From an uncultured Litoreibacter sp. (GTDB lineage: Bacteria; Pseudomonadota; Alphaproteobacteria; Rhodobacterales; Rhodobacteraceae), in assembly GCA_947492995.1 (NCBI GenBank), contig CANLOU010000002.1, positions 310,001-374,000 of the forward strand: DNA of 64,000 bases, in the 5' to 3' direction. The translations under genes and the position numbers were made by a program. This document shows positions 7,760-21,233 of the stretch, in pieces (within the stretch, counting starts at the first letter, position 1; every line of letters starts with the position of its first letter). The notes under the pieces were generated by a model that did no database searches, was not told the origin of the DNA, and saw only the letters and a program-made list of their open reading frames with translations.

Positions 7760-7846
7760 GCGGTCGTGGCGGAATTGGTAGACGCGCAGCGTTGAGGTCG
7801 CTGTTCTGTAACAAGAGTGAGGGTTCGAGTCCCTCCGACCGCACCA
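7760..7846 (+). tRNA. tRNA-Leu (anticodon GAG)
   Basis: Acceptor stem GCGGTCG / CGACCGC, D arm GGCGGAATTGGTAGACGC, anticodon stem CAGCG/CGCTG with loop TTGAGGT (anticodon GAG), a class II variable arm, T arm GAGGGTTCGAGTCCCTC, and an encoded CCA at 7844-7846. Its last 14 bases form part of the 16-bp attachment repeat of the integrated element, so integration leaves the tRNA intact. Confidence 0.96.
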
Positions 7847-7848
7847 TC
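7833..7848 (+). repeat. attL, 16-bp direct repeat (3' end of tRNA-Leu)
   Basis: CTCCGACCGCACCATC, identical to 19005-19020. It covers the 3' acceptor strand, the discriminator base and CCA of tRNA-Leu plus two bases. Confidence 0.93.
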
Positions 7849-7890
7849 ACATCAAAAAAATCAATGACTTACTGGCCGCTTTGGCTTTGA

Positions 7891-7913
7891 AGTCCGCTCT
7901 AGGTCCGCTTTTG
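7891..7913 (+). repeat. Candidate integrase arm-type sites, left end
   Basis: A perfect AGGTCCGCTTTTG at 7901-7913 preceded by the partial copy AGTCCGCTCT at 7891-7900. The same 13-mer occurs twice more, both near attR, in the same orientation, and nowhere else that I noticed. Confidence 0.65.
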
Positions 7914-8013
7914 AATTCGCTGCGCGATTGGTTGCGATGACGTAGCGTAAGGTCGCATGATGCTTCGTACATGCAATGAGCATTAGTAGTCATAATTGAA
8001 GAGGCTCTAGCGA

Positions 8014-9633
8014 GTGGGACGGTTCAAGCGGAACAAGCCGTGTTGGTGTGGTAGCGGCGTCAAGTTCAAGTTTTGTCATTACCTCCAGCCGACAACTGAA
8101 TTGGACAATCCACCGTCGCACTCGGAAGCATTTGATCTTGCCATCAGAAAAGCTGAAAATGATGAGAAAATCCGAAAGATGCAGCAAGGGTTAGGCCGCC
8201 CAATCGTAAGTGCAAAGATGGATGACCACCAGTTTGTCGCCGCGGGCAATACAATTTACTTCTCGAAAAGGTGGAGAACTTTCCCTGACTTCCTGTTTGA
8301 CTACATAGGGCATGTCTTTGGGCACGACTGGTGTAAAGTTGAGGCAAATCGGGATGAGCCAGACTTGCACCCTATGTTTGTTTGGTTTCGACGTGTCATC
8401 GACCTTCAAAACAAACGGAACCTAGATGCGGGCAAGGTATACTCCACGGAAATGACCGGCGCTGTAATTTGCTATCTTGGCTTGGCGTACAACTTGTACC
8501 TACTGAAGCATAACGCTGAGCTTCAGTCCTTGTTGATCAGAAGACTGAAGGTTCCCGCGCAGTTTCAAGGTGCTTACTATGAGCTGATCGTTGCAAATTG
8601 TCTGATCCGTGCAGGTTTCGAACTTGAGATCGAAGATGAGACAAACTCTGATGAGAAGCATTGTGAGTTCTCAGCGCGATCATTGGTAACTGGAGAAAAA
8701 TATTGGATTGAAGCAAAGATACGCGGCGTTGAAGGGGTGCTAGGAAAGACCAAAGCAGACAGTGCCAAAGGCTCTGACCCAACGTCGCAGTTAACGAAGC
8801 ACATTAAGGAAGCACTGAAGAAACCGGCACCTGACAAGAGAATGATTTTCGCGGATGTAAACGCTCCACCAGAGAAAGAAAATAGAGAGCCGTCTTGGTC
8901 TCCAAAAGCGTATGACAAACTGGCTCGCCGTGAGGCTGACGTACCCGATGGTGATCAAGCGTATGTTTTCGTGACTAATTTTCCATACCATAGAGCGCTT
9001 GATGATACCTTGGTAGGAAAGGCTGCGTTGGCCTTCGGGCTTGGTATCGATGACTTTGCAAAGGTCGGGTATGTTGGATTGACTGCGAGTTATCGGAGTA
9101 AACGCAAACACCGAGATGCTTTCAACTTGATGGAAGCAATGAAAGGCTATCCGACATTCCCAGAAACACTAGATGGTCTTCCTGCGGGCGAGGATGGGCT
9201 TAGTCAGAAGAGCGGCAGGTTTTTCGTTGGAGGGGAGTACTTCTTTGAAGAAACAGAAGGCAACGGAACGGTTGGAGTGCTAAAATCAATAATTGTGCAT
9301 GAGGACGAAGGTTCGGCAACTGTTGTTATTGCGACTAGGAGTGGACGCAATGTCTTAGCGAAGACGCCGATAACCTCTACCGAGATAGCAGCATACAAAA
9401 AATACGGTAAGTCATATTTCGGTGAGAGAGAAAGCGGCGGAAGGGCTAACGACGAATTTGAGCTTTTTGAATTTTTTGTCGAAAATCACATCAACTTACC
9501 GAGGAATCGACTACTCCACTTGATAAAAGATCACCCGCACTTCGACCAATTGGCAAAGCTGGAGCATGAAGACCTCGTATTTGCGATCTGCGAAAATTAT
9601 GTCCTATCGGCTCGGCAACGAAGCCAGCGCTAG
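8014..9633 (+). CDS. SEC-C zinc-motif protein with PD-(D/E)XK nuclease-like domain, possible defence cargo
   Basis: 539 residues, GTG start. At residues 10-22 is a SEC-C zinc knuckle (C10-W-C12-GSG, then FC21-H22). At about 185-236 the order of Glu190 (GAYYELIVANCLIRAGF), Glu218 (HCEFS) and Glu233-Ala-Lys235 (KYWIEAKIRG) fits the core of a PD-(D/E)XK nuclease fold. The rest (about 300-539) is unassigned and has no membrane helix. The base composition is clearly AT-richer than the phage genes and the host, and the gene runs against the packaging genes at the attL edge, the usual place for satellite cargo. A role in anti-phage defence is inference; the SEC-C match is firm, the nuclease match moderate. 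Confidence 0.7.
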   Translation: MGRFKRNKPCWCGSGVKFKFCHYLQPTTELDNPPSHSEAFDLAIRKAENDEKIRKMQQGLGRPIVSAKMDDHQFVAAGNTIYFSKRWRTFPDFLFDYIGHVFGHDWCKVEANRDEPDLHPMFVWFRRVIDLQNKRNLDAGKVYSTEMTGAVICYLGLAYNLYLLKHNAELQSLLIRRLKVPAQFQGAYYELIVANCLIRAGFELEIEDETNSDEKHCEFSARSLVTGEKYWIEAKIRGVEGVLGKTKADSAKGSDPTSQLTKHIKEALKKPAPDKRMIFADVNAPPEKENREPSWSPKAYDKLARREADVPDGDQAYVFVTNFPYHRALDDTLVGKAALAFGLGIDDFAKVGYVGLTASYRSKRKHRDAFNLMEAMKGYPTFPETLDGLPAGEDGLSQKSGRFFVGGEYFFEETEGNGTVGVLKSIIVHEDEGSATVVIATRSGRNVLAKTPITSTEIAAYKKYGKSYFGERESGGRANDEFELFEFFVENHINLPRNRLLHLIKDHPHFDQLAKLEHEDLVFAICENYVLSARQRSQR

Positions 9634-9638
9634 TAGCG

Positions 9639-9860
9639 CTATCCTGCCCGCCAATACAACGCCATCTCGCCCAACGCGCCGCCAAGCGCGATATGCTGAC
9701 CGTTCAAAGCGTCAGATGGATCGGAAAGCACAGTGGCCTCTGTCCCACTCTCCACAGTCGTCGGATCAGGCAAATCGGCGTAGGTGTTGAATGTCAGCAA
9801 CGGAGCGTTGTTTTCCCCGCCTTCCCATTGGTTGCGGGCCTCATTCCACTTGGGCTGCAT
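9639..9860 (-). CDS. Small phage protein after portal, unknown (possible head completion or decoration)
   Basis: 73-78 residues (ATG at 9860, or at 9875 for the longer form; the shorter one has GGGGGCGA in front). The core TFNTYADLPDPTTVESGT ... GEMALYWRAG faintly resembles the short beta-rich modules at the ends of phage fibre or decoration proteins, but this is weak. It overlaps the end of the portal frame by about 20 bases and is the last gene of the packaging operon, where a head-tail adaptor would be expected. No confident function. Confidence 0.5.
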   Translation of the reverse strand: MQPKWNEARNQWEGGENNAPLLTFNTYADLPDPTTVESGTEATVLSDPSDALNGQHIALGGALGEMALYWRAG

Positions 9861-11058
9861 CGTCGCCCCCCACATTCATATTCATTGGCGTCATGTAATC
9901 GTCGCCGCCGTCAATCTGGCTCATGTTCTCCCAGCCGCGAATTTCATTGGCCGAAAGCCAGCCATTCGTGCGCCCGATTGCGTAAGCCTCGTAGCGGGCC
10001 TGAATATCGCCTCTGAGAAGGCCAGACAGGTCATGCTCTACAAAGTATGTGCGGCGGGCCGTGGCGGTTAGCAGAGCGGCGCTCATGGCGGCCTCAAGGC
10101 GGCGGGCCATCGGAGCAAGGCAACGAGACACTAGAGCGCGGCTTTCGCCGTCTACGTTCGAATACGTGGCCTGATCGACAATGCCTACGGCGGTCGGCGG
10201 CACGTTGAACACGCGGCAAACGTCGAGGTTGGTCAGCTTGCGGCTTTCCAGAAACTCGCCATCCTTGGGCGAGAACGTCATTGGCTTGTACTCAGCCCCA
10301 CCATCCAGAATGAAGATACCAGGCGAGCTGCCTTGTGATGGGTCCACAATCTGCCGCGCCTGCGCTTGGGTGCGGTCATAGGCTTCGTCGCTCATTGAAT
10401 GCGGAAAGGACATTACGCCCTCAGAGCGGAATGCGTGGCGAGCTTGTTTGTGGGCCTGTGTTTGCTGTTCCAGACCGAGGTTGAAGGTCTCACGCGCCAA
10501 AGCGAGCGGAGACAGGCCCATTACGCCCTCCGCGTCCAAGCGATAGCGCAGATGCAAAATTTCGTCGGACAGGTAGACGCGCACGCCCTTGTTCGGGTGT
10601 GTGACGCGGTAGCGAAGCTCGCCGGAGTAAAGCTGCTCGACCGACACCGCGAGTTGAGGCAGTGGTGTAATCGCGACCACCTGTCCGCGCCCGTTCCACG
10701 TCAGCTTCGCATAAGCGTTGCCCGTGGTCAGAAGGGTCGCAATCATCAATTCCCGCGCTTCAAACGCGGTCATTGTCGGGTCGGCCATGTCGTGCAACAG
10801 GCCATAGACAGGGTGCTCAACCGCTTTCGCCCGCCCTTCATTTTCGGTGCGGCGATATAGGTGGAGCGGCATGGCAGCGAGGTTTTGGGAGATAAGTCCG
10901 ATACAGGCATGTGCGACGGCAAGGCCAGAGGCGCGGGATACGTCCACATGACTTTGCAGTCCACCGCGCATCCCGAACCACTGCGAGAGATACGGGTCAC
11001 TTGATTTGATGGAGGCGCGGCGCTCCTCGCGGCCTAGAAAGCGGTCAATCAAGCCCAT
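9841..11058 (-). CDS. Phage portal protein, HK97 type
   Basis: 405 residues. It forms the dodecameric ring at one capsid vertex through which DNA enters and to which a tail joins. Seen: an N terminus MGLIDRFLGREERR, then VDVSRASGLAVAHACIGLISQNLAAMPLHLYRR, DMADPTMTAFEARELMIATLLTTGNAY, DEILHLRY and the NVPPTAVG segment, all typical of the HK97-type portal family, and near full length. The ATG at 11058 overlaps the protease stop as TGATG; the open frame reaches 11073 but that start would sit inside the protease gene. It follows the protease, opposite to the usual portal-protease-capsid order. Confidence 0.92.
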   Translation of the reverse strand: MGLIDRFLGREERRASIKSSDPYLSQWFGMRGGLQSHVDVSRASGLAVAHACIGLISQNLAAMPLHLYRRTENEGRAKAVEHPVYGLLHDMADPTMTAFEARELMIATLLTTGNAYAKLTWNGRGQVVAITPLPQLAVSVEQLYSGELRYRVTHPNKGVRVYLSDEILHLRYRLDAEGVMGLSPLALARETFNLGLEQQTQAHKQARHAFRSEGVMSFPHSMSDEAYDRTQAQARQIVDPSQGSSPGIFILDGGAEYKPMTFSPKDGEFLESRKLTNLDVCRVFNVPPTAVGIVDQATYSNVDGESRALVSRCLAPMARRLEAAMSAALLTATARRTYFVEHDLSGLLRGDIQARYEAYAIGRTNGWLSANEIRGWENMSQIDGGDDYMTPMNMNVGGDDAAQVE

Positions 11059-11570
11059 CAGCGATACCCCCAAAGGCGCATCCGACGCTCCGCCATGTCA
11101 AACGCGGCCCGCGCCGAAACAGAGGTGCCTTGATATGCCGGAAAAGAGGAAACCACGCTGATTTCGTGGAGGATCACGTCGCGCACCTCGCGCACGTCAT
11201 CCATCCACCGCTCATCCACCATCGTAAAGCCAAAAGACATTCCACCGAGGTCGCCACGTTCCGACAACTCCAAAAGATCGCGGCCTACACGAGTGTTTGG
11301 CACGTCCAATGAGAACGCCAGCCCTTGGCTATCCTCTGAGAGACGCAGCGTGCCGGAACGGGTGCGGCCCAGCACTTGCTTTGCGTCATGGTCAGCGAGC
11401 GCCAGAACATCTCGACCGGAGGACAGAGAGGAGCTGAATGCCCCCTCTGCGATACGCTCCATCAATTGCGGCTCGATACGTGCCTCCACGCCATAAAGGG
11501 CCGCGTAGCCTTCCAGCTTGCGACCCTTGGCGCGGATTTCGACCGCGTTGGGAATGGAGCGAGTTTCCAT
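11058..11570 (-). CDS. Prohead maturation protease, HK97 (U35) type
   Basis: 170 residues. It cleaves the delta scaffold domain from the major capsid protein during head maturation. Seen: the family opening RKLEGYAALYGVEARI, a central LALADHDAKQVLGRTRSGTLRL containing the catalytic His, and FGFTMVDERW followed by ILHEISVVSSFPAYQGTSV, the usual C-terminal blocks. It lies four bases after the capsid stop and one base into the portal start, so the three genes are translationally linked. Confidence 0.93.
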   Translation of the reverse strand: METRSIPNAVEIRAKGRKLEGYAALYGVEARIEPQLMERIAEGAFSSSLSSGRDVLALADHDAKQVLGRTRSGTLRLSEDSQGLAFSLDVPNTRVGRDLLELSERGDLGGMSFGFTMVDERWMDDVREVRDVILHEISVVSSFPAYQGTSVSARAAFDMAERRMRLWGYR

Positions 11571-11574
11571 GCGC

Positions 11575-12816
11575 TTAGAGGGCGCGGTTCATGTAGGCAA
11601 ACGCCTCTGGGTGCCGCACCACCACGTCCGCGTCGAGGAAGGCGTGCAGCAGCAAGCCGCCTTTTGAGGAAACGTCCGCGTGATACGGGTTCGCCAGAAT
11701 GTCCACGCCAGACCAAAACGCGAGGTACATATTTGACCATGCGCCGTACATGATTGGATATTCGCCAGCGGTGCCAGTGTCGGTGACTTGCGTGGAAAGC
11801 GCGAATGGACGGCCATGCCACATCCACCCTGTCGGCAAAGGTTGGCCCGTGGTGTCGCGGCTTGTGCGGCTTTCATGCGCAACTTTTGGATTGGTCAGGA
11901 AAGCGGCCTCATCAAACACATCGTCAATCTCAAGCGCTTGCATGAGCAAAGACGTATCCTCGCCCAGATCGTTGCCGGACGGCGGAGTGGCGGTGATCGC
12001 GGGATCAGAAAGCAAGCCCACAGGCTCGTCAGTACCGCCTCCCTTGATTGCAGCGGCGTCGAGCGCTTGGGCCAGCAGGAAGGACAAATCGCGTGTCAGG
12101 ATCGGCTCAAGTGCTTGCTGAGACTGGATCATCATGCGGCGGGACAGCTCATACTCGGCGGAGACGGTTTTGGGCTTCGCGCTCTTTTTGGAGAAGCCTG
12201 CATCGCTGCGGATTGTGTCGGTGTGTTCTTTGATCCAGTGCGCGGTGCCAGAGTTGGCAAGGCGCGGGAGGTCCAGATCGCCAGTCAAATTGCGCAGAAC
12301 AGTCGCGCCTAGCTGTTGAACACGCAGCGCAGGGCGGCGGCGGTCGGTCATTGCAGCCAAGTCGGTCGCGACCATATTGCCGCCGGGATTTGCGCCGGGT
12401 GTTGTGGTTTTGAGTGCGCGGGTTTCGCCGCCCAGCAGAATTTCAGTCGGAACCATAACGCCTTGTGCCTTGCCGCGCTGTTCTTCGAGGTGCTGGTGCC
12501 ACTCTGCCTCCAGCCCTGTCATGCGCTTCTCAGAGCCTTCCATGATCGCCTTTGCGACCGAGTAACCCATCAAATCGGGTTGGTCGCGGCGTTCACCGGC
12601 GACGTGTTCGGCTTCCTCAGTGCGGCGGTCGTATTCGCACATCCGCTCCTCGCGGGCGCGGCGCTCATCAACCGATTTCATTTCGCCGTCGAGCTTGTCA
12701 AAGCGGGCCTTCTCATCAGCAGAGAGGTCGCGTTTCTCGGTTTCGGCTGCGTCCAGAATGCCTTGCATGTCAGCAAGCAGGGCAGTCCGCTTTTCGGTCG
12801 TTTCGTGAATGCCCAT
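11575..12816 (-). CDS. Major capsid protein, HK97 fold
   Basis: 413 residues. The N-terminal about 100 residues are a charged coiled coil (the delta scaffold domain, KRTALLADMQGILDAAETEKRD onward), followed by the HK97 shell domain (VATDLAAMTDRRRPALRVQQLGATVLRNL; ILTRDLSFLLAQALDAAAIKG; AFLTNPKVAHESRTSRDTTGQPL; LLHAFLDADVVVRHPEAF). The island therefore builds its own shell instead of borrowing the helper capsid. The ATG overlaps the stop of the upstream unknown gene as TGATG, suggesting that the two are made together. Confidence 0.93.
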   Translation of the reverse strand: MGIHETTEKRTALLADMQGILDAAETEKRDLSADEKARFDKLDGEMKSVDERRAREERMCEYDRRTEEAEHVAGERRDQPDLMGYSVAKAIMEGSEKRMTGLEAEWHQHLEEQRGKAQGVMVPTEILLGGETRALKTTTPGANPGGNMVATDLAAMTDRRRPALRVQQLGATVLRNLTGDLDLPRLANSGTAHWIKEHTDTIRSDAGFSKKSAKPKTVSAEYELSRRMMIQSQQALEPILTRDLSFLLAQALDAAAIKGGGTDEPVGLLSDPAITATPPSGNDLGEDTSLLMQALEIDDVFDEAAFLTNPKVAHESRTSRDTTGQPLPTGWMWHGRPFALSTQVTDTGTAGEYPIMYGAWSNMYLAFWSGVDILANPYHADVSSKGGLLLHAFLDADVVVRHPEAFAYMNRAL

Positions 12817-13493
12817 CAGGCAATTTCCTTCTTTGGTTGAGGCGCAGAGAGGTTGCGCGGGTCATAGGCGTGAAAGGCGTCCAAGAGGGTTGGAAGGCCA
12901 AACTCAGCCATTGTGTGCAGGTCCACGCCCTGCGGAATGCGGGTCGCAAGGATCGCGGCCTCGCTTGTGACGGCAAAGCGGCAAAACCAGATGTCTTTCC
13001 CGTTTTCGGTCAAAACGACGGCAGCGCGGTTGTGCCAGATGCGCACGGTTATGCGGTGAAGGCCGAAACCATCCTCACAAGACTGGCGCAGGGTCGCTTC
13101 GTCGGTCGGGGAGAGGTCGGGCAGGTTTTCGGCTGTTGAGGCGTCGATGACCAAGCGGGCAGCGAGCGGCAGGACAGAAATGGCCGCAAAGAAACTGTCT
13201 TGTTGCGCCACGGCGTCCAGCATGGAGAAAGGGCTTTTGCCAGATGCCCCGATTGGGGTCATCAACTTGGAACGGGTGATTGCGTCCAGTTTGAATTGAT
13301 GCGGCCCGCTGGCGGACAGCCCCACAAGCAGCGAGGCCATGTCGTCCAGATCAGCATCGCGGCCCTTGGGTCCAGCCTCCAGCGGGAGGCATAGGTCGCT
13401 TTCAACGCAAGCCCGCAGGAAACGATATGCGCTCCCATCACTCACCCCAAAGCGAGGTGCGACGGCTTCACAAAGACCTTTCAGATTTGGCAT
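12816..13493 (-). CDS. Unknown protein between large terminase and capsid genes
   Basis: 225 residues, not recognised. The N-terminal part (about 1-60, LKGLCEAVAPRFGVSDGSAYRFLRACVESDL) reads like a helix-turn-helix and could bind DNA; the C-terminal part is mixed alpha/beta. It is the first gene after an AT-rich gap with a palindrome and is translationally coupled to the capsid gene. No separate small terminase is visible in the element, so a small-terminase-like or packaging-site role is possible, as is a regulator or head-assembly factor. None of these can be chosen from the sequence. Confidence 0.6.
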   Translation of the reverse strand: MPNLKGLCEAVAPRFGVSDGSAYRFLRACVESDLCLPLEAGPKGRDADLDDMASLLVGLSASGPHQFKLDAITRSKLMTPIGASGKSPFSMLDAVAQQDSFFAAISVLPLAARLVIDASTAENLPDLSPTDEATLRQSCEDGFGLHRITVRIWHNRAAVVLTENGKDIWFCRFAVTSEAAILATRIPQGVDLHTMAEFGLPTLLDAFHAYDPRNLSAPQPKKEIA

Positions 13494-13595
13494 GGCTTTT
13501 CCTCAGTGCGGTTACACCGAAAATAGCGTTCTAACGCCAAAAATTACATCAAAAAAATACCTTAATGCATTGATGTATATAGATGTTTTATGCTG
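13494..13595 (-). promoter_or_regulatory. AT-rich gap with palindrome before the capsid operon
   Basis: This 102-base gap is the only sizeable break among the structural genes and is much AT-richer than both sides. It holds the dyad GCGTT-CT-AACGC at 13526-13537 and runs of A/T beyond it, placed just upstream of the unknown-capsid-protease-portal genes. It may carry their promoter and an operator; I cannot fix -35 and -10 boxes. Confidence 0.4.
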
Positions 13596-15224
13596 TTAGC
13601 TAATGTAAGCCAAACGAGGAATTGGCGCGGGGCCTTCGTCTTTATCCGCGACGGCCAGAGCCATTGCGAGTGCCACCAGACCATCAATTCGACCGTTTGA
13701 GCGGGCCTTGTCGAGCTTGCGGTTGCCCGCCGGATCGCTGGTAATGATGCTGTTTGCCGCGCACATGCTCAGAATGGGATTGTCCCCATGACGCAGCTTG
13801 CCTTCGACAACAAGGCGCTCCAGCTTGTCAACCGCCACACTCATGTCGCGAAAGCCTTGCCCATGCTCAGCCATTGGGATTTCGACCCCCATTTTTTCAA
13901 ATTCGAGTTTCAGCAGATTGATGCGCCAGCGGTCGTAAGCCATGAGGCGGAGGTCATAGCGCGAGGCAGCATCGGCAATCGCTTGGCAGACATATGAGGG
14001 ATCGACCACCGCGCCGGGAATGGCCGTGAGATGCTTTTGCCGCGCCCAAACATCATAGGGTACGCGGTCGGCCTCTGCACGGTCGCGCAGCCCAATCTCA
14101 GGGAGGAAAAACTGCGGCACCACGTCGAAACCGCCCGCATCGTCGGGAAACACCATGACAAACGCGGTCAGGTCACGCGCTGCGGATAGGTCCAGCCCCG
14201 CAAAGCAGGTGCGTCCTTTCATGGCCTCCAGATCGACCTCGCCGCCGTTTGCATCCCACTCAGATTTGGTCAGAAAGCGAACATGTGCAGAAACGCGCTG
14301 ATTGAGGATCAGATTGCGAAAGCCGTGCTCCTTTGCGGGCATACGGGTAGCCTGCTCTGCTTGGCGTTTCACATCGGAAAGGCTGCGAAAGTCGCCAAGG
14401 GCCGGATTTGCAGCAGCCCAAGCCTCGCGGTCCATGATTTGCGCATCGGCGGCGGCGGCATAGAGCGTGCAATGGAAGCTGGTATCGGTGATTTCGCCAG
14501 AATTGACCCGCTGGCCATAGTCAATCAGCTCCGACATAGGGGCGAGGTCGTCAGCCGCTTGGGTTGAGATGACCACCATGAGCGGATTGTCCCGTGCGCC
14601 CATAGCCGTATCGAGGGCTTCATACAGGTCGCGCCCTTTGGTTTGGCCAAGTTCATCATAGACGACAAACGAGGGTGACAGCCCGTGCTTGGTAGCAGCA
14701 TCGCTCGACAGCGCGGCAAAGATTGACCCATCGCCGTCCCCGTCGAGGACTTCCATTTGCTTGCGAAAGTCGGTCGTGTTCACGCGGCATTCGAGCCAAG
14801 GGCAGGCTCGAACAATCGCACGCATCTCCAAATAGAGCTTACCCGCCTGCGTTTTGTCATTCGCTGCGCAGTAGACCTCGCCACGCGCTTCGCTTTCAGG
14901 CCCCGCGAGGTGACAGAGCGCCAGAGCAGCGGCGAGCTGAGTTTTGCCGTTCTTGCGGCCAACGGAGAGAACGGCAGTACGAATTGGGCGCTCACCCTCG
15001 TCGTCCTCGGCGTAGACGGCGCGAATGAAGTCCTTTTGCCATTCGCGAAGGACAAGTTGCGTTCCGGCGAGTTTGCCTTGCGTGATGGGAAGGAACTCGC
15101 AGAACGCGATAACGCGCTCGGCCCTGTCCAACCCACTCGCTTCCCAAGGGTAGCTTTCAGGGCAGAGCGCGGCGAGTTTCTCCCGCTTTGCCTTTGTAAG
15201 TGCTCCGGAGCCGCGTAACGCCAT
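13596..15224 (-). CDS. Phage terminase large subunit
   Basis: 542 residues, full length. The DNA-packaging motor and nuclease: it cuts concatemers and pumps DNA into the head through the portal. Seen: Walker A SVGRKNGKTQ (residues 87-96), Walker B FVVYDELGQ (Asp190-Glu191), the coupling segment VVISTQA, and the RNase H-like nuclease start FAGLDLSAARDLTAF at about 335-350. It belongs to the HK97-type large terminases that work with an HNH protein at cos sites. The HNH gene is upstream on the same strand, but the usual small terminase between them is absent; a forward-strand secreted protein occupies that place. Confidence 0.94.
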   Translation of the reverse strand: MALRGSGALTKAKREKLAALCPESYPWEASGLDRAERVIAFCEFLPITQGKLAGTQLVLREWQKDFIRAVYAEDDEGERPIRTAVLSVGRKNGKTQLAAALALCHLAGPESEARGEVYCAANDKTQAGKLYLEMRAIVRACPWLECRVNTTDFRKQMEVLDGDGDGSIFAALSSDAATKHGLSPSFVVYDELGQTKGRDLYEALDTAMGARDNPLMVVISTQAADDLAPMSELIDYGQRVNSGEITDTSFHCTLYAAAADAQIMDREAWAAANPALGDFRSLSDVKRQAEQATRMPAKEHGFRNLILNQRVSAHVRFLTKSEWDANGGEVDLEAMKGRTCFAGLDLSAARDLTAFVMVFPDDAGGFDVVPQFFLPEIGLRDRAEADRVPYDVWARQKHLTAIPGAVVDPSYVCQAIADAASRYDLRLMAYDRWRINLLKLEFEKMGVEIPMAEHGQGFRDMSVAVDKLERLVVEGKLRHGDNPILSMCAANSIITSDPAGNRKLDKARSNGRIDGLVALAMALAVADKDEGPAPIPRLAYIS

Positions 15225-15311
15225 TTCAGGTTTCCTTTTTGCTTGATCGAATTCCTGTTGTGCGATTGGCTCTAACTATAGGAATTTACGGTTTTTGAAG
15301 GGATTAGGATC

Positions 15312-15710
15312 ATGAGAACTGCCGCCGCTACATTGACCGTAATGATGTGTTCGACCATGACTGCGCATGCTTTCGATGACCTGAGTTGTGAATCCACCGA
15401 GTTTACCGTCATCGGTGAAGGGATTGAGGATGAAGACCGAGAAGTGCTTAGAGGCACCCAATTCAGGTACATCATTTTAGAAGACAAAGTTTTCCGGCGT
15501 ATATCCTTTCGCGACGAGCTGAAAGAAGAGGCGGTATTGGATGTCCAACAACGCAGCTCCTCTACGATATTTGCATCTGTAGTGGATGACAGTTGGTCGA
15601 TTTCCACCGCCATCAAGATCATGCAATCCGAAGATCGTGCAGAAGCGATGGAGACTTGGCTCCGTTTGAAAGAGTCTGCAACGTTCAAACTTGAATGCAG
15701 CATTAACTAG
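15312..15710 (+). CDS. Small secreted protein, island cargo, unknown function
   Basis: 132 residues with a Sec signal peptide (MRTAAATLTVMMCSTMTAHAF, cleavage near residue 20). Two cysteines (in LSCESTEF and KLECSIN) could form a disulfide. No family recognised. It is encoded against the packaging genes, between HNH and large terminase, and is more AT-rich than they are: the pattern of a later-acquired gene expressed from its own promoter in the integrated state. It could modify the host envelope, for example against other phages, but nothing in the sequence shows this. Confidence 0.65.
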   Translation: MRTAAATLTVMMCSTMTAHAFDDLSCESTEFTVIGEGIEDEDREVLRGTQFRYIILEDKVFRRISFRDELKEEAVLDVQQRSSSTIFASVVDDSWSISTAIKIMQSEDRAEAMETWLRLKESATFKLECSIN

Positions 15711-15903
15711 GTATTTGCGCAGTGGTCCACGCGCTCGACAGGGCGGGAAAAGCCAGTGATGAAAGGCCCCCTCCCTTTGCAAAAGCACGATAAAACAATG
15801 TGTTGACGTGCCTGCTTGATGTGGCTTAGGGCGGATGAATGGACATTGGTGATCTCCTCTTTGTTGCTGGTGCGCTCTTTGGCGTGGTGGCGTTGATAAC
15901 TGG

Positions 15904-16251
15904 CTAGGCGTTCCATTCGTGGAACGGGTCGAGCGGGTTGCCGTGAATGTCTGACCCTGCAAACGCTGCTTTGGTGTCTGTGCTATGGCGGGGGTGGTCT
16001 CGTGCCGTCTTGAGCTGGTGACAGCGCGTGCAGAGGCTGAATAGCTGGTCTAGGGGCGGATACGGTGCGCCCCCCTTCGACAGAGGCGTGATGTGGTCCA
16101 CGGTAGTCGCAATGACTGCGCGGTTACGGCGCTCACATATCTGGCAAACAGGGTCGCGACCCAGCTTAGCTGCGCGGAGCTTCTTCCAAACGCTGGTGCC
16201 GTAGATGCTGGAGCGTTTGCGCTTGCGCCATGATGTGGGTGTCTTTGCCAT
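15904..16251 (-). CDS. HNH endonuclease (packaging type)
   Basis: 115 residues. HNH nucleases next to large terminases stimulate cos cleavage in HK97-like phages and in cf-PICIs. Seen: a CQIC zinc ligand pair, the core VDHITPLSKGG, and LCTRCHQLKT, the second zinc pair plus the final His. The N terminus is basic (WRKRKRSS). It lies nine bases after the preceding small gene on the same strand, so it belongs to the same transcript as the regulatory genes rather than directly to the terminase, from which the secreted-protein gene separates it. Confidence 0.92.
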   Translation of the reverse strand: MAKTPTSWRKRKRSSIYGTSVWKKLRAAKLGRDPVCQICERRNRAVIATTVDHITPLSKGGAPYPPLDQLFSLCTRCHQLKTARDHPRHSTDTKAAFAGSDIHGNPLDPFHEWNA

Positions 16252-16260
16252 AGCTGCCCC

Positions 16261-16473
16261 TTAGACCCGCAAGTGCTGGAGTTCGGGGAAGCGGTCGGAG
16301 AAGCGGTCGGCCATTTCAAGGAAGCGCCGCTTGCGTTCCTGAATGGCCATGATGTGCTCGACGCTATGGCCTTCGAGCCGTGCCACATATTCCAGCGCGA
16401 CAATCTCCGCAGCCGCCTCCAGACCAGAGACAAGGGCGCAGCGGCGCTCAAAGGGCGTTGCAAGCTCGGTCAT
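16261..16473 (-). CDS. Small phage-island protein, 70 residues
   Basis: An acidic/basic helical protein (ALVSGLEAAAEIVALEYVARLEG ... IQERKRRFLEMADRF), probably a coiled coil; no known family. Its ATG overlaps the preceding stop as ATGA, and HNH follows nine bases on, so it is a genuine member of the operon. A small-terminase role is conceivable given its position before HNH but it is shorter than any I know. Confidence 0.6.
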   Translation of the reverse strand: MTELATPFERRCALVSGLEAAAEIVALEYVARLEGHSVEHIMAIQERKRRFLEMADRFSDRFPELQHLRV

Positions 16474-16724
16474 GCCAGTACCAAGCCAATATCGTCGGTC
16501 AGGTCCGGTGCATCTGTGACGTAGAGCCGAAAGCCATTCGCGGCCATCTCCTTGGCAAGCGAGCGCAGGTCATGCCGGATCACTTCAATGTTGAGGCGGT
16601 CACCGGTGAGCTGACGTTGCATCGCCGCCAGCTCCTTGGCGGTATCACGTAAACAGACTGCCTCGCGCCCACGGAGAAGCAACAGGGCGGCGGCGGCTGA
16701 TAGCTGGGGAGTGTCATTAATCAT
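16470..16724 (-). CDS. Small phage-island protein, 84 residues
   Basis: Starts at the ATG at 16724, overlapping the DUF1376 stop (the frame extends to 16751 but the shorter start gives the usual coupled overlap). Helical, with RDTAKELAAMQRQLTGDRLNIEVIRHDLRSLAKEM as its main helix pair and a conserved-looking LYVTDAPDLTDDIGLVLA tail. No family recognised. Its position between the replication-type gene and HNH suggests a regulatory or packaging accessory role. Confidence 0.55.
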   Translation of the reverse strand: MINDTPQLSAAAALLLLRGREAVCLRDTAKELAAMQRQLTGDRLNIEVIRHDLRSLAKEMAANGFRLYVTDAPDLTDDIGLVLA

Positions 16725-17259
16725 CGGGCGCATCTTTCTCTGCATGGCCATTTACGGATTGTGGGTCGGGCGACGTGCTGGGGAGTTTTGATCCCAATCT
16801 GGCCCAAAGGTCGCTCGGCGAAGCGGGATGCGTTTGTTTTGTTTTCTTTTTATTTGTTTTGTTTTGTTCTTCTTTTAAGGGATGCCCACCGCCGACTGTG
16901 TTTTCGCCTTCTTTCAGGTACTTATGCGAGTGAGCCTTGCGACCATTCCGGCGTTGTTTCGCGTAAAAGTCGGACGTTTCCCGATACTCACGAGCTAAAC
17001 GCTTTTGGGTCCACCGATTGCGGCTGCGTTTGCAGAACTCATCGAGCACCGGAACGTAGTGCCGATTGTACTCTGCAACCGTGATACGCAGCCGGTGCCG
17101 TATCCAGTCGGCATCGGCAGGAATTGAGCCGCGTGTGTCCCACATCAACAGCAGAAGACGCAGATAAGCGCCGTGCTGGACGGTGGACAGATGGCCCGTA
17201 TCGGCAAGATAATCTGAGATGTGAAAGCGCATATAGGGCAGCTTTTTCTTTTCAGCCAC
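16717..17259 (-). CDS. DUF1376 protein, probable replication-module protein
   Basis: 180 residues. The N-terminal about 90 residues (MRFHISDYLADTGHLSTVQHGAYLRLLLLMWDTRGSIP) are the DUF1376 domain found in phage and island replication modules, usually upstream of a helicase loader or replisome part. The C terminus is a low-complexity linker rich in Lys, Asn and Thr, encoded by a long A-rich tract (about 16820-16880). No helicase, primase or polymerase is present in the island, so it would have to recruit host or helper replication proteins. Confidence 0.8.
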   Translation of the reverse strand: MAEKKKLPYMRFHISDYLADTGHLSTVQHGAYLRLLLLMWDTRGSIPADADWIRHRLRITVAEYNRHYVPVLDEFCKRSRNRWTQKRLAREYRETSDFYAKQRRNGRKAHSHKYLKEGENTVGGGHPLKEEQNKTNKKKTKQTHPASPSDLWARLGSKLPSTSPDPQSVNGHAEKDAPDD

Positions 17260-17267
17260 AACAGGGC

Positions 17268-17468
17268 TTACTCAGCGGGCAGGGTGGTGGCTTCTTCGCG
17301 GCGCAATTCGAGGATAAACAGGTCTACCTCGTCCTCAACCCACATCGGACGTGCGCCCAGCTTGAAGGGTTGCGGCACACGCCCGAGCTGGACGTAGCGG
17401 TCAAGTGTGGCGCGAGCAATTTTCAGCTTTGCGCACATGTCTTCTTTGGTCAGGTAACGGATGGTCAT
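17268..17468 (-). CDS. AlpA-family excisionase/regulator
   Basis: 66 residues, a winged-helix MerR-like DNA-binding protein (YLTKEDMCAKLKIARATLDRYVQLGRVPQPFKLG), typical of AlpA regulators that switch on satellite integrase/excision genes. Starts at the ATG at 17468; GAGGAG lies 10 bases before it and is buried in one arm of a long inverted repeat (17473-17503), so translation may be gated. It stands at the head of the operon running into DUF1376 and HNH and is transcribed in the same direction as the integrase upstream of it. Confidence 0.88.
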   Translation of the reverse strand: MTIRYLTKEDMCAKLKIARATLDRYVQLGRVPQPFKLGARPMWVEDEVDLFILELRREEATTLPAE

Positions 17469-17472
17469 CAAA

Positions 17473-17503
17473 CATGCTCCTCAAGTTGTGTTGAGGAAGC
17501 ATG
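17473..17503 (-). promoter_or_regulatory. Long inverted repeat over the alpA ribosome-binding site
   Basis: On the reverse strand CATGCTTCCTCAA, loop CACAAC, TTGAGGAGCATG: 12 paired bases with one bulge. The 3' arm contains the GAGGAG site for the AlpA ATG at 17468, so folding would hide it. It could instead be a dyad operator for autoregulation. Confidence 0.65.
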
Positions 17504-17609
17504 GATCACAGTGAATTTCGGCTGAAAATGCCCTAGTTTTTCTCACTATGCGAGGATGTGCGCTGTTGTGTGAGGTTGTTTTCGCCGTAATAAATCGTGA
17601 AGAAAACCC

Positions 17610-18797
17610 CTAACGTGCGGTGTCCAGATATACGATTTCAGCTTCCATCCCCAACAGAAATGCAGCCCATTTTTCCATTAGTGGACGCCGAAGTTCGGCA
17701 GTGTGGCCGCGCATGTAGGCCAGCTCGACCTTGCTGCGAACGCTGTGATGCAGGGCCTCCTCTACGAGTGTGTCAGAGGCGACGTTGTTGATGGTGGCCC
17801 ACATCTTGAAGGCGGTCCGCATCCCGTGCGCGGTCGCGTCAATCTTGGCGCGGCGCATCCGCTGCGTCCAATTGTTCATGCTGATGTGGCCAGACTTCCA
17901 CGCGGCATCGTTTTTGAAGATGTAGCCCTCGCGCTTGTCGTAGTGCTTTGCAGCTTCGTCCAGTATCGCAATAGCTTCTGGAGTGAGCGGCACATCATGC
18001 GGTTGGCCGTTTTTCATTTCCTCAGCGGGAATATGCCATAGATCGCCCTCAATCTGCTCCCATCGCGCCTCAGCCGCATTGCTGGCCCGTGGCATCGTCA
18101 CGATGTAGAACCGCAAACCTAAGTCTGACACGGTACGATCAAGGCTTTGATAGAACGCGGGAACTGCATCGTGGTCCATTGCCTTCACGTTCACTACCTT
18201 GTGCAGTGATTTGCCCAGAATTGTCTTTGCGCGGGCAGGGGCTAGCGCATCGACTTCGTAGTCTGCGGCTGCGGCCCATTTTAGGATGACATTCAAGCGA
18301 TCCATCACCTTATCCATCGTCGGGAACATGGTGTTCCATTTGGGGCGCAGTTTGTCGGCTATCACACGGCCTGTGATTTCAGATGCACGCATGTTGCCAA
18401 ACATTGGAACGACGTGGTTTTCAATTGTGGACCACCAGCGACCAGGGGCACCGCCGTTTTTGAGGCTGCGTCGATGGTCTTCAAAGGCGAGTACGGCCAG
18501 CTCCTTGATGGTGATCGACTTCTCGGCGGAGCCTTTTAGGCTCTCCAAGATGACCGTCTTTGGGTCGTTGCCGCGCCGCAATTCCGCACGATGGTCTGCA
18601 TTGCGCTCGCGTGCCTCCTTCAAAGTAACCTCAGGGAAAGTTCCAAGGCTTAGTGCGCGGTCTCGTCCCTCAATCTTGTAGCGACACTGCCAGCTTCCAG
18701 TCCCGTCGCCATTTGATTTATACCGCAGTCCAGTTTCGACTTTGTGGTTTCCGGCGGGTGCGTTCTTGATGTTCAAGGCGGTGATTGTGGTCGGCAT
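17610..18797 (-). CDS. int: Tyrosine-type site-specific integrase
   Basis: 395 residues. N-terminal DUF4102 arm-binding domain (about 1-85, LNIKNAPAGNHKVETGLRYK ... REARERNADHRAELRRGNDP), a SAM-like core-binding domain, and the catalytic domain with Arg237, the HxxR box AHGMRTAF (His324, Arg327), a following HHSVRS and the nucleophile Tyr361 (LAYMRG). It catalyses integration at the tRNA-Leu 3' end. The gene lies at the attR end and reads inward, with candidate arm sites (AGGTCCGCTTTTG) just before its start and beside attR. The gap of 138 bases to alpA holds a large inverted repeat. Confidence 0.95.
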   Translation of the reverse strand: MPTTITALNIKNAPAGNHKVETGLRYKSNGDGTGSWQCRYKIEGRDRALSLGTFPEVTLKEARERNADHRAELRRGNDPKTVILESLKGSAEKSITIKELAVLAFEDHRRSLKNGGAPGRWWSTIENHVVPMFGNMRASEITGRVIADKLRPKWNTMFPTMDKVMDRLNVILKWAAAADYEVDALAPARAKTILGKSLHKVVNVKAMDHDAVPAFYQSLDRTVSDLGLRFYIVTMPRASNAAEARWEQIEGDLWHIPAEEMKNGQPHDVPLTPEAIAILDEAAKHYDKREGYIFKNDAAWKSGHISMNNWTQRMRRAKIDATAHGMRTAFKMWATINNVASDTLVEEALHHSVRSKVELAYMRGHTAELRRPLMEKWAAFLLGMEAEIVYLDTAR

Positions 18798-18820
18798 TTC
18801 TTGCTAAATCCTGCATTTTC

Positions 18821-18857
18821 GAGGTCCACTCAGGTCCGCTTTTGGTCCGCTTTTTTG
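18821..18857 (+). repeat. Candidate integrase arm-type sites, right cluster
   Basis: Three near-tandem copies: AGGTCCACTC (from 18822), a perfect AGGTCCGCTTTTG at 18832-18844, and TGGTCCGCTTTTTTG from 18843. All are in the same orientation as the copies at 7901 and 18987. Confidence 0.65.
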
Positions 18858-18986
18858 CTTGGTAGGCATGATTTACGGAAACGAACAGTGAGGGTTCGTG
18901 ATGCAATATGCTTCATTCATCGTCAATAAAATAAAGTCGATGATTGAGGTTGTGTGAGGAGGGGTTGGAGGTCTTGAGTTTGCATG

Positions 18987-18999
18987 AGGTCCGCTTTTG
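18987..18999 (+). repeat. Candidate integrase arm-type site next to attR
   Basis: A perfect AGGTCCGCTTTTG ending five bases before the attR core at 19005. Confidence 0.65.
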
Positions 19000-19004
19000 T
19001 CGTG

Positions 19005-19020
19005 CTCCGACCGCACCATC
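19005..19020 (+). repeat. attR, 16-bp direct repeat
   Basis: CTCCGACCGCACCATC, identical to the tRNA-Leu 3' end at 7833-7848. Beyond 19020 the sequence returns to host character. Confidence 0.93.
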
Positions 19021-19086
19021 TCTCTCTGGATCAAGTCGGCTTTCAGCATTTCACCCCATCCCCATGCCGGCCACACCGGAGCCGCC

Positions 19087-21171
19087 TTATGCAAAGACTT
19101 CCGGGGCTTCGAACACGAAATCGGCCTCGGTCAAATCCGCGACATCCACATTGCGCAACACGAGCCGATCGCCATTGCCCAGCCTGACCTCGGCATCTGT
19201 GCTGCCATAGGTCTGGATGGTGATGTCGTCGAAATCCCCCGCAATCAGGATACGGTCAACGCCGTCCTCGAAATCATACACAACGTTGAGGCCCGACCCT
19301 TCGCGAAACGCGAATACATCCGCGCCCGCGCCGCCGTAAAGGCGGTCAGTGCCGGCGCCTGCCTCGAACTGCTCATCGGCCGCGGTGCCGCGCAGCGTGT
19401 CGCTGCCATCGGTGCCTTCGACAAGGGTTACCGCCGGGGCAGAGACGTTGAAGGTGACGTCCCCCGCATCTGCAAGATCGACATTGCGCAAGATAAGCCG
19501 GTCCCCATCCGCCGTGCGCATCTCAAGATCGACGCCATTATATTGGCTGAACTCAAGCTCCGACACATCAATGCCGACCAAGGTGATGCTGTCCTCAGAC
19601 AGGTCGAAATCGTAGACAATGTTGGTGTCATAGCCTGTGCCGAAGGCCACGCTGTCCGCGCCGGCGCCGGTCCAGATCCGGTCGTAGCCCGTGCCGCTGT
19701 CAATCACGTCCGCGCCGCCATAGCCGAAGATGCGATCCGCCCCGTCCCAGCCGGTCAGGACGTTGTCGCCATCGGTGCCAAGCATATGGAACAGGACCGC
19801 GTCGGCCTCAGAGATGTCCACGTTGCGCAACACGATGCGCTGGCCATCGGATGTGCGAATATCAAGGTCGGTGCCATTATAGGCGGTGATGGTGATTTCA
19901 GCCTGGGAATATCCTTGCAAACCAACGGCGTCCTCGGTGGTGTTGAAGTCGTAAACCACGTCTACGCTGCCATCGGTGCCCATGACGAACGTATCCTCAT
20001 TGGCGCCGCCCCACATCCGGTCGGTGCCACCGCCGCCGATGATGATGTCATGGCCGCCATTGCCGTAAATCCAGTCGTCGCCGGACTGGCCTTCGATGGT
20101 CTCGCTGAGGCGACTGCCGTCAATGCGTAGCCCCGCGCCTTGTTCCGTGATGCCCAAACGCGTGTCCTCGATCGTCACGATGAAAGGCAGGATCGGCACG
20201 GTGGCTGCGGGGCCGGTGGCAAAGATGAAATCGCCAGGCTGCATGTCAGCGCTGTCTTCGACCGCACCGTAGGAGAGCGTCGGGTTGCTGACGGGCGAGG
20301 CGGTCACGATGCGCAGTTGCCCCTCGGGGGTCATAGTGGCGGAGAGGATTGCGACCTCAACGCCGTTGTCGGTCAGGGTAAAACCGCCCAGATCGAATGC
20401 ACTGTCGATGGTTTGGTCGGGGGCGAGGTCCATCTGGATCAGCAAAGTGGTGTCGTCCAACAATATTGCATTGCCCACGGCGGGCGAGGTTTCGCCCGTT
20501 GAAATCGCGATGGCCATGCGAATGGCCGCGATCTCGTACCCCTCGTCAGTCAGATGCACCGAGTCGCGCAAGGGCAGGTCAAAGATGGTCGTTGCCAGCG
20601 TGATGGCGTCAGACGCGTCGGCAATGGCTTCTTGCGCTGCGCGAATGGCGGCGGTTCCGCCATGCAGCGTTTCGGAATAGAAGGTGCGGTCGCCCAAGGC
20701 CTGAATATAGACGGCGGGCGCGCCGCTGGCCTGCGCCAGCGCGTCCAGCACGAAGTGCAGGCCCGCTGCGTAATCCTCTGCCCCGTTTGCGCCGACATAG
20801 GTGGTGTCGGCCTCGCCCTGCGCCCAGATGACGCCAAGAAACTGGGTGCCATTGGCGACCTCCGCCGCGATACGCGCCGCGAAAAGGTCCAGATTTGGGC
20901 CTGCGGTGCCGGTGTCCTCGTCATACCAAAAATTGGCAGCGATCCGCGCGTTAAGCTCGGGGTCATCGGGAGCACGGACATCGGCATATTCTGACGCCGA
21001 CCCGCTGAGAATGGCCGAGCCGCCCCGCGCGGCGTCGTAGAACTGCACATCCGTGTATTGCGGGTTGCGGGCCAGAAATTCTGTGCGAAACGCCTCCAGC
21101 GCGGCACCGTCATTCACGGTGAACCACTCATCCAAGTTGGATTGGCCCGCCAGCACAAAATACGCGATCAT
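19087..21171 (-). CDS. Secreted SGNH-type carbohydrate esterase with RTX calcium-binding repeats
   Basis: 694 residues. N-terminal SGNH/SASA-type esterase domain (about 1-220): the Ser block VLAGQSN, the WAQGEAD block, and the catalytic Asp-His in DSVHLTDEGY; such domains remove acetyl groups from sugars. A middle beta domain (about 230-330) is followed by RTX nonapeptide repeats (GNGGHDIIIGGGGTDRMWGG) and three tandem units of about 90 residues, each containing VYDF and LRNVD. No N-terminal signal peptide, so export by a type I secretion system is likely. The ATG at 21171 has GGGAGAC before it. Before the island inserted, this gene lay next to tRNA-Leu. Confidence 0.85.
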   Translation of the reverse strand: MIAYFVLAGQSNLDEWFTVNDGAALEAFRTEFLARNPQYTDVQFYDAARGGSAILSGSASEYADVRAPDDPELNARIAANFWYDEDTGTAGPNLDLFAARIAAEVANGTQFLGVIWAQGEADTTYVGANGAEDYAAGLHFVLDALAQASGAPAVYIQALGDRTFYSETLHGGTAAIRAAQEAIADASDAITLATTIFDLPLRDSVHLTDEGYEIAAIRMAIAISTGETSPAVGNAILLDDTTLLIQMDLAPDQTIDSAFDLGGFTLTDNGVEVAILSATMTPEGQLRIVTASPVSNPTLSYGAVEDSADMQPGDFIFATGPAATVPILPFIVTIEDTRLGITEQGAGLRIDGSRLSETIEGQSGDDWIYGNGGHDIIIGGGGTDRMWGGANEDTFVMGTDGSVDVVYDFNTTEDAVGLQGYSQAEITITAYNGTDLDIRTSDGQRIVLRNVDISEADAVLFHMLGTDGDNVLTGWDGADRIFGYGGADVIDSGTGYDRIWTGAGADSVAFGTGYDTNIVYDFDLSEDSITLVGIDVSELEFSQYNGVDLEMRTADGDRLILRNVDLADAGDVTFNVSAPAVTLVEGTDGSDTLRGTAADEQFEAGAGTDRLYGGAGADVFAFREGSGLNVVYDFEDGVDRILIAGDFDDITIQTYGSTDAEVRLGNGDRLVLRNVDVADLTEADFVFEAPEVFA

Positions 21172-21233
21172 TGACTTGTCTCCCTCTAAATACCCCAAGA
21201 AACGGTTGTAGAGGTTTGTTTTTCAATGTGAAG

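Follow-up and report, generated by a model that had tools for sequence, protein, structure and literature searches.

A compact island of Litoreibacter that encodes its own phage head but no recognised tail is probably a head-making phage satellite

A 64,000-nucleotide stretch from an uncultured Litoreibacter sp. (Alphaproteobacteria, Rhodobacteraceae; contig CANLOU010000002.1, positions 310,001 to 374,000; hereafter, the window) contains, at positions 7833-19020, a compact island that combines an integrase with the genes for a capsid, a prohead protease, a portal and a large terminase (TerL). The question raised by this locus is whether such an element is a satellite that makes its own heads and depends on other phages for tails or what is left of an ordinary prophage. 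The original prediction, made from the DNA alone, assigned the island to the capsid-forming phage-inducible chromosomal islands (cf-PICIs), possibly as a new sub-type. Passages of PMC11389934 distinguish three capsid clades of cf-PICIs and describe the mobilization of EcClEDL933 by phages HK106 and HK446, and the hosts and mean size of these elements are treated in passages of PMC10803314. The island is likely a phage satellite that makes its own heads; it appears to function like a cf-PICI, yet is distinct from the gammaproteobacterial cf-PICIs in its capsid and TerL.

The island is an 11,172-bp insert in a tRNA-Leu gene, with exact 16-bp repeats (CTCCGACCGCACCATC) at both sides, a site-specific insertion that carries its own integrase. 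The length of the repeat leaves a narrow margin on its own, because mononucleotide shuffling of the two 600-bp ends, repeated 200 times, produced shared repeats of up to 15 bp (mean of the longest, 8.9); the call of the attachment (att) sites is therefore decided by the placement at the 3' end of the tRNA gene and by an empty site. The empty site is present in genome G411 (locus L127), where the left flank, the tRNA and the right flank (from window position 19083) are contiguous, with no island in between. The predicted repeats are at the positions given. The island TerL is found in one of the 21 genomes of the genus (18 near complete), namely that of the window itself, and the tRNA-Leu locus was located in 20 of the 21. 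Island DNA is present in none of the 19 congener tRNA-Leu loci. Right-flank DNA lies near the tRNA in six of these (L127, L128, L129, L136, L137 and L139), in all but the first of which it comes from farther along the flank, and the other 13 show no right-flank match within the 1.5 kb compared. Immediately inside the island ends, the motif AGGTCCGCTTTT occurs in three exact copies and one copy with a single mismatch (0.32 expected per 64 kb), and a fifth copy, with one mismatch, is located elsewhere in the window. By GC content, measured in 1-kb steps, the island (0.47-0.60) is only partly distinct from its flanks (0.55-0.65). The gene directly outside the right repeat (19087-21198, minus strand) contains RTX repeats and shows a borderline SASA esterase match, at the cut-off.

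On the minus strand, the island encodes, in this order, the integrase, an AlpA-like protein, a DUF1376 protein, two small proteins without library matches, an HNH endonuclease, TerL, a 225-amino acid protein (hereafter X225), the capsid, protease and portal proteins and a 78-amino acid protein; the plus strand carries genes for a 132-amino acid protein and a 539-amino acid SEC-C protein. All named genes are open frames. The integrase, DUF1376, HNH, TerL, capsid, S78 protease and HK97-type portal proteins score above the Pfam or NCBIfam cut-offs, and the AlpA-like protein matches excisionase/regulator families of PHROGs though it falls below the Pfam cut-off. The original list of intact genes is thus confirmed, with X225 and the 78-, 132- and 539-amino acid proteins as additions, as is the claim that the island lacks tail and lysis genes, none of which were recognised in the window copy.

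The same capsid-protease-portal cassette is shared by 24 further loci, bringing the total to 25 (the window, L005, L029, L032, L040-L057 and L120-L122). A capsid search of 394 genomes of the family identified 17 at E <= 1e-20, of which five were annotated, namely the window's own genome and G294, G263, G297 and G116; a three-row capsid profile identified four among 390 genomes of the order and three among 385 genomes of the class, in both cases at 1e-50, these samples being overlapping. From IMG/VR, the best 80 of 224 loci were retained; capsid identity is 42-54% in 18 of them (L040-L057) and does not exceed 31% in the other 62. Several of the 25 loci are contigs that are cut short; L055 and G263 represent a single DNA, the broken copy in G297 was excluded from the 25, and L003 was discarded as a spurious locus from the capsid scan of genome contigs. 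Nine elements including the window island are flanked by repeats of 16-51 bp and span 9.1-12.1 kb, several of them being inserted in tRNA genes. The cassette thus recurs in further elements with flanking repeats, again with no tail module. The att sites differ among the loci (tRNA-Leu, -Asp, -Arg, -Ala, -Met and others). Compared with plasmids, the capsid of L049 matched one record (30%); compared with phages, it matched 57, all below 60% identity, the eight listed being at 25-32%. One member, L032 (G116), is repeat-flanked and encodes an integrase, capsid, protease and portal along with a 721-amino acid open reading frame (ORF) without a PHROG match; no TerL was recognised there.

The order capsid, protease, portal was observed in 25 of the 25 loci, among which L040-L057 were chosen by capsid identity alone (42-54%) and the other seven, including the window, were admitted after the order had been seen. 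The portal precedes the capsid in all 47 resolved loci of phage type or of gene transfer agent (GTA) type, with a further 19 unresolved; the 47 comprise 43 resolved among the 62 low-identity IMG/VR loci plus L006, L007, HK97 and the GTA-like cluster of the host genome. Among annotated stretches of named phages, 12 of 12 likewise have the portal ahead of the capsid. Three gammaproteobacterial elements of the cf-PICI type show the same capsid, protease, portal order as the island. In the sufficiently long contigs among L040-L057, the layout consists of HNH, TerL, mostly a helix-turn-helix (HTH)-like protein (recognised by eye), capsid, a connector of the Ad1 type except in L042, protease, portal and mostly an integrase. 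In close relatives, the head genes are under strong purifying selection: 26 gene-pair comparisons of TerL, capsid, protease and portal between such relatives gave dN/dS values of 0.028-0.122, the window's own copy having no partner that is sufficiently close. These observations bear on the possibility that the island is what remains of a normal HK97-like prophage after loss of the genes for tail and lysis and of most early genes, a scenario compatible with the phage-type head genes, the lone tail-assembly gene in one of the 25 loci (L122) and the broken copy in G297. Because the compact layout recurs in 25 loci at differing att sites, in a gene order unlike that of all resolved phage-type relatives, with selection acting on the relatives' genes and open frames in the window, we reject a deleted prophage and consider this origin unlikely.

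The scan for tail genes covered 127 non-marker ORFs picked by a script from 15 of the 25 loci, nine delimited by repeats and six by contig or tRNA. Pfam matches on these ORFs fell into 15 families, all listed, none of which is a tail or lysis family; PHROG matches fell into 47 families, and among the 25 listed, both tail families trace to a single L122 protein. BLAST with HK97 tail proteins yielded a match in L122 only among the 25 loci. Following the check proposed with the original prediction, genes for tail or lysis functions that belong to the same phage were sought in the relatives, and none came to light apart from this lone gene resembling lambda gpI (all 25 loci by BLAST, 15 by Pfam). 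Given that a gene is annotated as tape measure in L150 and another as tail terminator in L151, the gammaproteobacterial elements are not free of tail labels either. Two of the 127 ORFs match PemK/MazF toxins.

In the relatives, the gap between the HNH and TerL genes contains a conserved block, in which a G tract, ATCAC and AAATACTTAAT are common to them. An exact match to the pattern GGTGGGGG-N8-ATCACNAG occurs in 11 of 159 loci, all 11 in the island group; scanning viral contigs with this exact pattern returned 46 stretches, of which the 11 examined are island-group loci. A similar G tract is present in the last 25 bp of the vB_KppS-Ant record, which starts just ahead of the small terminase (TerS) gene, and a G tract is located about 40-50 bp short of the right end of HK97. 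The block is presumably the cos site. The window has a degenerate form of it, separated from TerL by the gene for the 132-amino acid protein.

Several observations weigh against the island being a head-making satellite, the first group of which pertains to packaging. No convincing TerS was detected when 10 TerS proteins were compared by BLAST (E 0.01) with 2,359 ORFs of the 25 loci: the matches span 12-81 amino acids only, mostly antisense or outside the element, and the most plausible one covers 47 amino acids (E 0.004; L121, 12204-12716). The same search gave matches in 27 of the 62 phage-type loci (four of these supplied references). The Pfam and PHROG scans revealed no TerS among the window genes, and the weak TerS match of the AlpA-like protein of L029 (0.0057) probably reflects a shared HTH. 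A connector was not recognised in six of the 25 loci, namely the window, L041, L042, L005, L032 and L122; the Ad1-type connector was seen in the other 19, in L121 placed ahead of HNH, and L044 additionally has a closure-like match. Within the window, the strict cos-like pattern has no match at up to three mismatches, and a short pattern has four matches in 64 kb vs 1.6 expected.

X225, which occupies the position between TerL and the capsid, adds to this group because its structure model is poor (predicted local distance difference test score, pLDDT, of 43) and unusable. It falls loosely in one alignment with its relatives (A3; 12-18%), as a group separate from the MerR-type proteins at the same position; neither X225 nor the L030 form has a tblastn match at E 0.01 in 50,697 phage records, and X225 has none in any other of the 394 family genomes. 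No ORF of this kind lies between TerL and the capsid in L029 and L121. We considered a role as a lambda Nu1-like TerS for these proteins and discarded it: the MerR-type form from L047 yields a good model (pLDDT 79) that best matches the MerR regulator CvkR (7xn2, E 8.5e-6; profile 2e-6), and its matches to the viral library are weak and of the MerR type (best 0.026). Because the best match is CvkR, a regulator seems likelier than a TerS for the MerR-type form. In the same gap of L040-L056, there is a recurrent antisense gene for a small HTH protein (about 75-99 amino acids) and, in several loci, a short ORF starting with MPKERVCA.

The remaining points against concern tails, relatives and helpers. 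L122, a related island from a different family within the class, encodes the lambda gpI-like tail assembly protein near the portal (6652-7296, minus strand; 4.9e-41), which might act on the tail tips of a helper. The gene outside the right repeat of the window island partially matches two PHROG tail families (1.7e-7 and 6e-6); we read it as chromosomal rather than as part of the element because the empty site in G411 adjoins DNA 69% alike to its region. The gammaproteobacterial cf-PICIs, reported in passages citing the original work to be tail thieves, have a different capsid and TerL. No resident helper was recognised in the host genome, where no HK97-type capsid and portal were found besides those of the island and the GTA-like cluster. 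Finally, no particle, induction or helper was seen.

For the comparison of descent, we used three elements that we take to be cf-PICIs, namely L034 (EDL933), presumably EcCIEDL933, L150 (vB_KppS-Ant) and L151 (Pasteurella Pmp8); these assignments are our own reading and do not appear in the records. Groups for the approximately unbiased (AU) test were fixed by gene order, the gammaproteobacterial ones also by name, ahead of the trees, which were built from subsets with fragments below the length limit excluded; owing to very long branches, the final TerL tree omits both L155 and L153, and the final portal tree omits L155. A common clade of the alphaproteobacterial islands and the three gammaproteobacterial elements was rejected for the capsid (p-AU 1e-8) and for TerL (p-AU 5e-54), and was not rejected for the protease (p-AU 0.45) or the portal (p-AU 0.75, with better likelihood). 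In the 95-row tree, the capsid clade carries a star (99); its value in the 48-row mixture tree is 90, without a star. The alphaproteobacterial TerL is nearest to that of HK97, which lies inside the alphaproteobacterial group in the TerL trees, with L005 outside, and the rejection was obtained with L005 counted in the group. A single starred group unites the portals of the alphaproteobacterial islands with those of the gammaproteobacterial elements and, on a long branch, with the GTA portal; within it, the islands alone are not a clade and the GTA falls among both sets. Because the tests split in this manner, the capsid and the motor seem to be of other origin than the portal and the gene order. 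Portal ancestry and gene order may thus be shared with the gammaproteobacterial cf-PICIs; shared portal descent is a lead rather than a proof because the sampling of phage portals is limited.

It is accordingly possible, albeit doubtful, that the island belongs to the cf-PICI family by descent, its capsid and terminase having been replaced secondarily, a reading that overlaps with that of a head-making satellite and differs from it in the claim of membership. The common order in EDL933, vB_KppS-Ant and Pmp8, the portal grouping and the non-rejected protease speak for descent; the rejection of a common clade for the capsid and TerL and the lack of a convincing TerS speak against it, the trees having been built without cf-PICIs from Gram-positive bacteria. 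Like the gammaproteobacterial elements, the islands combine an integrase and an AlpA-type or other regulator with their own capsid, protease, portal and TerL, along with HNH (annotated in L034 and L151). Unlike those elements, they have HNH and TerL ahead of the capsid, a connector mostly between capsid and protease or none, in most cases an HTH-like protein encoded in the gap that separates TerL from the capsid, and a size of 9-12 kb vs about 14.4-16.5 kb. As regards the features of a cf-PICI, the window island possesses head genes, HNH and TerL of its own, an integrase with an AlpA-type regulator at a specific att site, the capsid, protease, portal order and, as do 14 other loci with the exception of L122, no recognised tail or lysis genes, whereas a small terminase, a head-tail connector and a capsid that groups with the three gammaproteobacterial ones were not found. 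Of the original assignment, a capsid-making, tail-less, satellite-like element of a distinct sub-type remains; plain membership among the cf-PICIs is not supported.

The host genome encodes two HK97-type capsids, that of the island and that of a cluster outside the window (G000:C2, about 480-494 kb; L123, L124) that contains a terminase, a portal, a protease and a capsid along with a match to a tape measure. BLAST gave matches for the cluster's portal, protease, capsid and connector, and also to the HK97 tape measure; from gene order and BLAST, we presume it to be a GTA. The host genome has no PF10145 tape measure, a weak test because PF10145 also missed this cluster. The island resembles the cluster in its HK97-type portal, protease and capsid and differs from it in gene order (portal, protease, capsid in the cluster) and in the tape-measure match; it does not itself qualify as a GTA, given that it lacks this order, has no recognised tail gene and carries an integrase. 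The cluster is the sole other source of an HK97-type capsid and portal found in the genome, which brings up the possibility that the satellite heads dock on the host's own GTA tails instead of phage tails. The helper may be non-resident, the GTA label is our own, from gene order, and the GTA portal approaches the satellite portals only via a very long branch; we regard this option as quite unlikely. Even less probable in our view is an elaborate variant with a separate alphaproteobacterial satellite radiation, in which a foreign capsid and an HK97-type terminase were grafted onto a cf-PICI-type portal and order, with its own cos, no classical TerS and GTA-tail docking where there is no resident helper. 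By default, the helper would be a phage from outside.

We also gave thought to retention of the head genes for a role other than transfer, such as phage interference or a cellular nanocompartment. The window copy is without a recognised tail, TerS or connector gene, and the SEC-C protein could be a defence protein, as would suit such a role; integrase, att sites, HNH, TerL and the cos-like block, however, are parts of packaging and transfer, and the scattered occurrence (one genome out of the 21 of the genus) points to mobility, so that we lend this explanation hardly any credence. The SEC-C protein, located at the island end, contains a mid-region E..EAK stretch that looks nuclease-like by eye and is possible defence cargo; of 345 genomes of the family, none but that of the window matches it at 1e-10. 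Its identification with a known defence system was discarded, the PADLOC matches being at the motif level only. Table 1 lists the features of the island.

Table 1. Coordinates of the island features in the window
Feature	Position	Strand	Basis
tRNA-Leu(gag), integration target	7760..7846	+	ARAGORN; Rfam RF00005
Left attachment repeat, tRNA-Leu 3' end	7833..7848	+	exact 16-bp repeat CTCCGACCGCACCATC
AGGTCCGCTTTT, possible integrase arm site	7901..7912	+	exact copy
SEC-C protein, 539 aa, cargo, possibly defence	8014..9633	+	PF02810 3e-7
78-aa protein after portal	9639..9875	-	homologue at same place in L029 (46%)
Portal protein, 410 aa	9841..11073	-	PF04860 2e-89; TIGR01537
Prohead protease S78, 170 aa	11058..11570	-	PF04586 1e-40; TIGR01543
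Major capsid protein, 413 aa, HK97 fold	11575..12816	-	PF05065 7.5e-25; TIGR01554
X225, 225 aa, between TerL and capsid	12816..13493	-	no library match; HTH-like N-terminus via alignment with relatives
Large terminase, 542 aa, HK97-like	13596..15224	-	PF20441, PF03354; 44% to HK97 TerL; tree
132-aa protein, cargo, between cos-like block and terL	15312..15710	+	signal-peptide-like start by eye; no library match
cos-like block: G tract, ATCAC, AAATAC..TTAAT	15702..15774	-	resembles, in degenerate form, the block between HNH and TerL in relatives
HNH endonuclease, 115 aa	15904..16251	-	PF01844 3e-9; phrog_2323 1e-22
70-aa protein, no library match	16261..16473	-	
93-aa protein, no library match	16470..16751	-	NCBIfam: two chance-level rows only
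DUF1376, primosomal-like, 180 aa	16717..17259	-	PF07120 3e-19; phrog_9327 primosomal 7e-24
AlpA-like excisionase/regulator, 67 aa	17268..17471	-	phrog_66 6e-8; PF05930 18.6 bits, under cut-off 21
Tyrosine integrase, 395 aa	17610..18797	-	PF13356, PF22022, PF00589; phrog_1 4e-36
Tandem pair of AGGTCCGCTTTT-type sites (the second has 1 mismatch), possible arm sites	18832..18854	+	
AGGTCCGCTTTT, possible integrase arm site	18987..18998	+	exact copy
Right attachment repeat	19005..19020	+	exact 16-bp repeat CTCCGACCGCACCATC

Among other known systems, the Streptomyces satellites MulchRoom and MiniFlayer, as described in passages of PMC10690885, are similar to the island in having packaging and capsid genes of their own, with a helper tail suggested for MulchRoom, and differ from it in terminal repeats, virulent helpers, a scaffolding protein and the overall architecture. 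The Vibrio satellite-plasmid cf-PISP, according to passages of PMC13230959, likewise has head genes, HNH and terminases and no tail genes; unlike the island, it is episomal, and its capsid groups with those of gammaproteobacterial cf-PICIs. The tailed phages nearest by capsid (Mica, Mano and S-LBS1; homologous capsids at 28-31%) and by TerL (HK97; homologous at 44%) differ from the island in that the portal is ahead of the capsid and TerS and tail genes are annotated. A literature search on cf-PICIs and satellites in Rhodobacterales, Alphaproteobacteria and Roseobacter gave no alphaproteobacterial report among the matches listed; this does not prove novelty because the original cf-PICI work is known through the passages that cite it.

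Under the head-making satellite interpretation, infection by a helper or induction would lead to excision via the integrase and the AlpA-like protein, and replication would rely on the primosomal-like protein together with helper or host enzymes. HK97-type heads would then be built from the island capsid, protease and portal, and HNH and TerL would cut at the cos-like site and package the DNA of roughly 11 kb. The role of TerS in DNA recognition would fall to a protein not recognised as such, for which X225 is one candidate, with the caveat that its counterparts of the MerR type bear a closer resemblance to regulators. The helper would contribute the connector and the tails onto which the heads dock, and would also bring about lysis of the cell. 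As for origin, the island may be a mosaic, with the portal lineage and the capsid, protease, portal order as in gammaproteobacterial cf-PICIs and the capsid and terminase from other phages.

The recurring group to which the island belongs probably spreads by borrowing the tails of other phages. The combination of a capsid and terminase of its own with a shared gene order, and perhaps a shared portal lineage, suggests that the interface between the portal and the helper tail is conserved across head-making satellites, whereas the capsid and the motor are exchangeable. With elements of 9-12 kb, this island group also provides small packaging systems.

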